From assembly GCA_040219515.1 (NCBI GenBank), contig JAVJSI010000012.1, positions 1 through 64,000 of the forward strand: a stretch of DNA of 64,000 bases, in the 5' to 3' direction. Shown piece after piece: positions 55,170-55,664 of this stretch. Positions within the stretch are counted from its first letter, which is position 1. Each line of letters begins with the position of its first letter. The DNA comes from Acidimicrobiales bacterium. Its GTDB lineage: Bacteria; Actinomycetota; Acidimicrobiia; Acidimicrobiales; Aldehydirespiratoraceae. The position numbers and the translations under genes are program-made. The notes beneath the pieces are model-generated. The model was not told the DNA's origin, searched no databases, and worked only from the letters and a program-made list of their open reading frames with translations.

Positions 55170-55646
55170 TCAGCCCAGGAGTGCCGGCAGTTGCTCGGCG
55201 ATCTCCTCGGGGGTGACCGTCGGCGAGAAGCGGGCGACCACTTCGCCGTCGGCGTTCACGAGGAACTTCTCGAAGTTCCAGGTGATGTCGGAGGAGTCGC
55301 CCTCGCCGGGCTGCTCCGCCTTCAACCAGTCGTAGAGCTCGCAGGCACCGTCGCCGTTGACCTCGATCTTGTCGAACATCGGGAAGTCGATGTCGAACTT
55401 CTCGGTGACGAAGGCGCGGATCTCCTCGTTGGAGCCGGGCTCCTGCGCACCGAACTGGTTGCACGGGAAGCCCAGGACCTGGACCCCGTTGTCGTCATGA
55501 TGAAGCGTACGCAGACCTGCGTACTGAGGCGTGAGGCCTCAAGCGGAGGCGACGTTGACGATGAGCACGGCGCGGTCGGCGAACTCACCGAACGACACCT
55601 GGTCACCTTCGAGTGACGCCATTTCGAAGTCGTGGAAACGACTCAT
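55170..55646 (-). CDS. Glutathione peroxidase, selenocysteine-containing (in-frame TGA)
   Basis: A 158-residue peroxidase that reduces H2O2 or organic peroxides. Reading from ATG 55646, codon 36 is TGA (55541-55539) in NVASA-U-GLTPQYAG, exactly the catalytic selenocysteine/cysteine position of glutathione peroxidase. Past the TGA the frame continues without a break through FPCNQFGAQEPG (Gln68) and ITWNFEKF (Trp123, Asn124), completing the Sec/Gln/Trp/Asn tetrad, and ends at 55170. A hairpin with loop ggtc begins 15 bases after the TGA. I read it as a selenoprotein. Ordinary calling would give two pieces. The alternative, a nonsense mutation or sequence error, is less likely because the codon falls precisely at the active site. 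Confidence 0.85.
55507..55541 (-). promoter_or_regulatory. Bacterial SECIS element
   Basis: Downstream of the TGA the mRNA can form a 7-bp stem, guacgca with ugcguac, closed by a GGUC loop (55524-55507). The gcaggucugc apex is identical to that of E. coli fdhF, and the loop begins 21 bases after the UGA, within the range known for bacterial SECIS. A second 6-bp hairpin (ugaggc with gccuca) includes the UGA itself and abuts the first. Confidence 0.75.
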
Positions 55647-55664
55647 GGATCTCCCTTGTGGCAC

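Follow-up and report, generated by a model that had tools for sequence, protein, structure and literature searches.

Selenocysteine-containing glutathione peroxidase (Sec-GPx) is an established family of bacterial selenoproteins, and the gene described here adds a member to it. Two papers name GPx as a bacterial selenoprotein family (PMC13188914, PMC1794560), and a third has a table of marine GOS data in which the GPx row carries the figure 40 (PMC2398784). The available part of a 2006 survey has one GPx selenoprotein, listed as Gpx under Treponema denticola, whereas the host here belongs to the Acidimicrobiales. Known bacterial Sec-GPx proteins (GPX-like, PF00255, UxxT), including the T. denticola Gpx, which we compared by description only, share with ours the Pfam family, the catalytic Sec, the UxxT motif (here UGLT) and the sel machinery. 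Bacterial and plant GPx of the Cys type (e.g., poplar GPX5, 2p5q) belongs to the same family and also has its Gln, Trp and Asn in place, but its catalytic residue is Cys rather than Sec, it has a Cys at position 80, and it forms fewer hairpin pairs than the Sec copies do. Without L065 (discussed below), the Cys loci among the matches listed number 44, and our gpx is 48-56% identical to them.

For the host group, a literature search on Acidimicrobiia or Acidimicrobiales and selenocysteine found PMC5649159 alone, and one on Ilumatobacter and selenoproteins found nothing, with most subscription journals lying outside both searches. The available part of PMC5649159 states that SelA and SelB co-occur in the majority of sponge symbiont bins from various phyla; two of all the bins in that study are Acidimicrobiia. 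A word search of the main text of PMC5029168 gave no hit for GPx, Acidimicrobi- or Ilumatobacter.

The window, i.e., the whole 64,000-nucleotide stretch of DNA that was analysed, comes from an uncultured member of the Acidimicrobiales, and at 55646..55170 on its minus strand it almost certainly encodes a Sec-GPx. The features of this locus, together with other candidate selenoproteins of the same genome, are collected in Table 1.

Table 1. Features of the gpx locus (window coordinates) and further selenoprotein candidates of the genome
Feature	Position	Strand	Basis
gpx gene up to and including its terminal TGA; 158-residue product, Sec at codon 36	55170..55646	(-)	sequence, translation, Pfam, PDB
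In-frame TGA, predicted Sec codon (codon 36, at the catalytic position, in UGLT)	55539..55541	(-)	translation, homologues
AAGGGAG, Shine-Dalgarno-like, 5' of ATG	55651..55657	(-)	read off sequence
bSECIS-type hairpin GTACGCA-GGTC-TGCGTAC, 7-bp stem, GGUC loop at 55517-55514	55507..55524	(-)	pairing, folding, codon comparison
Candidates L134, L138, L139, L140, L142, L151, L152, L153, L021: FdhA, two PGUT peroxiredoxins, two UGC Prx-like, two AhpD-like, SelW-like, SelD			in-frame TGA in redox-type motifs

A preliminary description had reported a start codon (ATG) at 55646, with TGA as codon 36 and an intact frame after it, and sequence and translation bear this out. The gene ends at a second TGA (55172-55170), the TGA at 55541-55539 is the one internal stop in its frame, and from there the frame is open to the terminator. 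The read-through product (MSRFHDFEM...VASA-U-GLTPQYAGLR...PALLG) matches PF00255 with 127.1 bits (cut-off 27) over positions 1-108 of the 108 in the profile, and solved GPx structures in the PDB match it across the TGA, the best with an E value of 1.1e-39. Against two NCBIfam models the product scored under the curated cut-off: gpx7 (TIGR02540; 118.2 vs 207.3) and PRK10606 (NF007900; 161.3 vs 270).

One could instead read the locus as two short proteins, namely a piece of 35 residues and, independent of it, a C-terminal ORF starting at the ATG at 55379. An ORF list with a 60-aa limit does contain the latter (55170..55379, 69 aa), and it is all that the list gives for the gpx frame, the piece 5' of the TGA having 35 codons. 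Such a split would fall inside a single domain across which the Pfam and PDB matches run, and homologues conserve the stretch of residues from the TGA to 55379, so we consider two separate proteins extremely improbable. The genes beside gpx vary: among 30 loci (our own included; flanks of about 1.5 kb or less), ten have what we take, from reading the sequence, to be a MoaD/ThiS-like gene, for which there was no NCBIfam match, and four have an ABC transporter. We therefore claim no operon.

Codon 36 was compared in 110 homologous loci, of which 30 come from TGA-GPx genomes of the same genus, family and order and the others are the best 80 of 539 confirmed named loci; the Cys copies compared are therefore the portion nearest to the query. 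Residue counts and the tree used 104 distinct proteins from these loci, six identical copies being left out. In all 110 loci codon 36 is TGA (65), TGC (40) or TGT (5). The TGA had been said to lie at the catalytic Cys/Sec position, and these homologues place it there; because codon 36 is only ever TGA, TGC or TGT among the matches listed, chance is excluded as the cause of its placement. Gln68, Trp123 and Asn124, whose presence had also been noted and which we take to be the other members of the GPx active-site tetrad, are invariant in 104/104 distinct homologues among the matches listed, as is Thr39 of UxxT (best 80 of the 539 named loci plus the 30 relatives' loci).

The genus, family and order together supply 149 genomes (our own included), of which 78 have GPx matches at E values up to 1e-20, giving 81 matches in total. 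A TGA lies inside the gene in 39 of these, from 39 genomes and at 59-99% identity, and the remaining 42 have at most 54% identity: 41 are without a stop and one has a TAG. This TAG-bearing relative (G058:C188:5647-6102) lies in a genome without a selA match and may be a broken gene or result from an error in assembly. Nine of the 39 TGA-GPx genomes gave no locus; in the other 30, all of which were checked, the TGA is at codon 36. A selA gene above cut-off was found in all 39 genomes with a TGA copy vs 14 of the 39 with only non-TGA GPx (Fisher p 1.8e-10, relatedness ignored). It was also found in 51 of the 71 genomes without a GPx match (relatedness likewise ignored) and in 104 of the 149 overall, and judged by this gene the selenocysteine trait is common around the source organism. 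A named strain, Ilumatobacter nonamiensis YM16-303, has a TGA-bearing gpx (L063:3001-3459). Elsewhere in the set, the organism label of L073, a 3752-base MAG contig titled Bordetella parapertussis, may be doubtful.

A lone in-frame stop is what one would also see in a pseudogene with a nonsense mutation, or after a sequencing or assembly error. Neither fits with the same TGA at the same codon in 65/110 loci among the matches listed, with selA in every one of the 39 genomes that have a TGA copy, or with the pattern of substitution. Comparison of our gene with 8 of the 29 loci from relatives, made codon by codon on unaligned sequences, gave a pN/pS of 0.43 upstream of the TGA and 0.31 downstream; on both sides there is selection against amino-acid change. 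At the level of the family, the conservation of the TGA refutes a pseudogene or error, and for this gpx we regard such an origin as very improbable.

The source assembly (4.02 Mb in 19 contigs, 99.98% complete, 4.96% estimated contamination) contains tRNA-Sec, selA, selB and selD, each above its curated cut-off. The tRNA-Sec (C18:131974-132065) scores 64 bits against a cut-off of 47, and ARAGORN calls it tRNA-SeC with anticodon tca (UCA); seven weaker matches of the model fall under the cut-off and are other tRNAs. On the same contig are selA (C18:155490-156623; 393.4 bits, cut-off 267.9) and selB (from C18:156659; 276.4 bits, cut-off 242.25, the match spanning only model positions 2-342 of 581), and their ORFs overlap by one base. 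The SelB protein has EF-Tu-type GTPase domains and, at its C terminus, the winged helix of SelB (PF09107; 52.8 bits, cut-off 23.2). The selD gene (C16:95480-96403; 362.2 bits, cut-off 125) has its own TGA, in SHGAG-U-GCK, presumably at the active-site Cys position of SelD. In 14 well-known genomes that served as controls, the cut-off was passed by tRNA-Sec in 5, selB in 2, selA in 1 and selD in 2. The gpx gene is on a different contig (C12) from the sel genes (C18 and C16), and contamination is estimated at 4.96% as given above, but mis-binning seems unlikely because TGA-GPx and selA co-occur in relatives.

The UGA might also be read as Cys, Trp or another residue, without selenium, through an altered code or a suppressor. 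Homologues have Cys at codon 36, so UGA read as Cys would also give a working enzyme. However, UGA also serves our own gpx as its ordinary stop, as it does 40 of the 65 loci with a TGA among the matches listed. In tRNA scans covering the window and eight loci, the sole tRNA with a UCA anticodon is tRNA-Sec, and the full sel set and the hairpin are present. Decoding of this kind has very little probability in our judgement.

Fourteen bases separate the TGA from the hairpin, which sits where a bacterial SECIS is expected and is a candidate bSECIS with a G in its apical loop. Its core, the 10-mer GCAGGTCTGC, is identical to the SECIS core of E. coli fdhF at codon 140 of that gene (a number obtained by arithmetic), and it is in the same reading phase, with the GGUC loop closed by GCA/UGC. 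The loop of our gpx is one codon farther from the UGA than that of fdhF, and beside the GCA/UGC stem it has a C-G pair where the predicted fold of fdhF has an unpaired U. This 10-mer occurs once in the window vs 0.22 times expected, and also in 20 of 100 shuffles. Rfam scans of the window and of locus L001 gave no SECIS match, and Rfam may hold no bacterial SECIS model.

Among the matches listed, the 65 Sec loci give 54 distinct Sec stretches, in which 97.6% of pair cells hold standard pairs, as opposed to 0 to 72.5% with slid partners. All seven pairs form in 45 of the 54 and six in the other nine, whereas Cys copies (n=45 among the matches listed) have 1 to 5 of the 7. Covariation is small: compensatory changes occur at two pairs in five cells among the matches listed (G-C to A-U in four, C-G to U-A in one), but sliding by -2 gives six double-change cells, and the number of pair types is not above that of shuffles (3 vs a mean of 3.3). 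RNAalifold alone predicts five of the seven pairs.

The codons that form the hairpin in the Sec copies are ones that these genes otherwise avoid. Among the matches listed, Ala43, in the Sec copies that have it, is GCA in 48/54 cases vs 96/814 Ala elsewhere (12%), Gly44 is GGT in 53/59 vs 154/720 (21%), Leu45 is CTG in 53/59 vs 201/714 (28%) and Arg46 is CGT in 50/53 vs 48/220 (22%), with binomial p values of 4e-23 to 3e-38 that treat related sequences as independent. Six Sec copies among the matches listed have GCC GGG TTG in the hairpin instead and are predicted to fold as well. Cys copies are biased too, with CAA at Gln41 (p 2e-10) and GGG at Gly44 (p 2e-8; relatedness ignored, among the matches listed).

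In single-sequence folding the z score of gpx is -2.91 (1 of 200 shuffles as low), which favours the hairpin; the scores of selD and E. coli fdhF are -1.00 and -1.14. With synonymous codons drawn at random for our own gpx alone, all seven pairs appeared in 1121 of 50000 draws and an equal fold in 376 of 3000. On this null the hairpin is not extreme and its fold energy is no strong argument, so the case for it rests on comparing many copies. The preliminary description had proposed that the organism inserts Sec at UGA, and this proposal gains support, at the level of sequence, from the sel genes, the conserved TGA and the SECIS-type hairpin at its expected place.

We infer from the above how the Sec-GPx would be made and would work. 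A ribosome would reach the UGA at codon 36 of the gpx mRNA, and SelB carrying Sec-tRNA(Sec) would bind the hairpin with its GGUC loop just 3' of the UGA, so that selenocysteine is inserted and termination avoided. In the Sec/Gln/Trp/Asn tetrad the selenol would then reduce hydroperoxides. As the protein lacks the resolving cysteine found in Cys-type GPx, an external thiol (mycothiol, another small thiol or a thioredoxin-like protein) probably reduces the oxidised selenium. Mycothiol is suggested for the source organism but not established, because the matches of the MshC model in its genome (410.7, 401.5 and 284.7 bits) are all below the curated cut-off of 485.1. The MshC-like matches (L146, L147) are two adjacent ones on C17 and one on C4, and one of them may be a cysteinyl-tRNA synthetase.

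Sec and Cys copies differ beyond the catalytic residue. Position 80, which we take to be the resolving Cys of Cys-type GPx, is Cys in 0/59 Sec copies vs 44/45 Cys copies among the matches listed. Residue 46, encoded by the 3' arm of the hairpin, is R, C or H in 59/59 Sec copies and E or Q in 44/45 Cys copies, again among the matches listed. A tree of the ‘quick’ kind was made from the 104 distinct proteins (best 80 of 539 named plus 30 relatives' loci) and leaves open 46 of its 101 inner branches. A branch with SH-aLRT 99 puts 44 Cys copies on one side and, on the other, the 59 Sec copies together with the Cys copy L065, among the matches listed. The Sec group there includes Acidimicrobiales, other Actinomycetota, Gamma- and Alphaproteobacteria and one Myxococcales MAG (among the matches listed).

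A gammaproteobacterial MAG is the source of the copy L065 (L065:2262-2729), whose catalytic codon is TGT. This copy has Ala80 and Cys46, and its identity to the Sec copy L060 is 79%. Its hairpin region retains GCAGGTCT and forms five of the seven pairs, a level also met by two other Cys copies. It is likely, though not proven, to be a natural Sec-to-Cys reversion with a relict SECIS, because its place in the tree, on forks of 83 to 89 of which none is starred, is within the Sec group.

Nine more TGA-containing candidate selenoproteins of known families (five families searched) are present in the same genome, making ten with GPx. Their TGAs lie in PG-U-T (two), U-GC (two), C-xx-U (three), RT-U-HAP in FdhA and G-U-GCK in SelD, motifs that we take to be redox or active sites. 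The FdhA candidate scores 622.1 bits, under the curated cut-off of 666.25. A TGA occurs in 4 of the genome's 8 AhpC-TSA proteins, in 2 of its 5 AhpD-like proteins (one scoring 22.0 bits, below the 23 of the cut-off) and in its single SelW-like copy. Separately, the TGA in the mshC-like match L147 was considered as a new selenoprotein and rejected: as codon three of the match it is followed two codons on by a possible GTG start, and the open frame of another gene runs into it, so that it is most likely the stop of that other gene.

A “selenoprotein-rich” organism is one with six or more selenoproteins, according to the available part of PMC1794560. On its candidate genes, the source organism is a candidate selenoprotein-rich actinobacterium.

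Taken together, the Acidimicrobiales and some marine proteobacteria may share one old Sec-GPx lineage without the resolving Cys. Its members would be one-selenol peroxidases reduced by a non-glutathione thiol (e.g., mycothiol), with at least one selenoprotein-rich host; the hairpin would have dictated residue 46 (Arg/Cys/His for Glu/Gln), and L065 would be a reversion to Cys with a fossil SECIS. We offer this combined picture tentatively, as slightly less likely to hold in full than to fail in some part. Ordinary gene callers can split or lose genes of the Sec-GPx kind. This is a convenient family in which to ask why selenium is kept, as it offers Sec/Cys pairs, one residue apparently imposed by the SECIS, and a named strain that carries the gene (L063).
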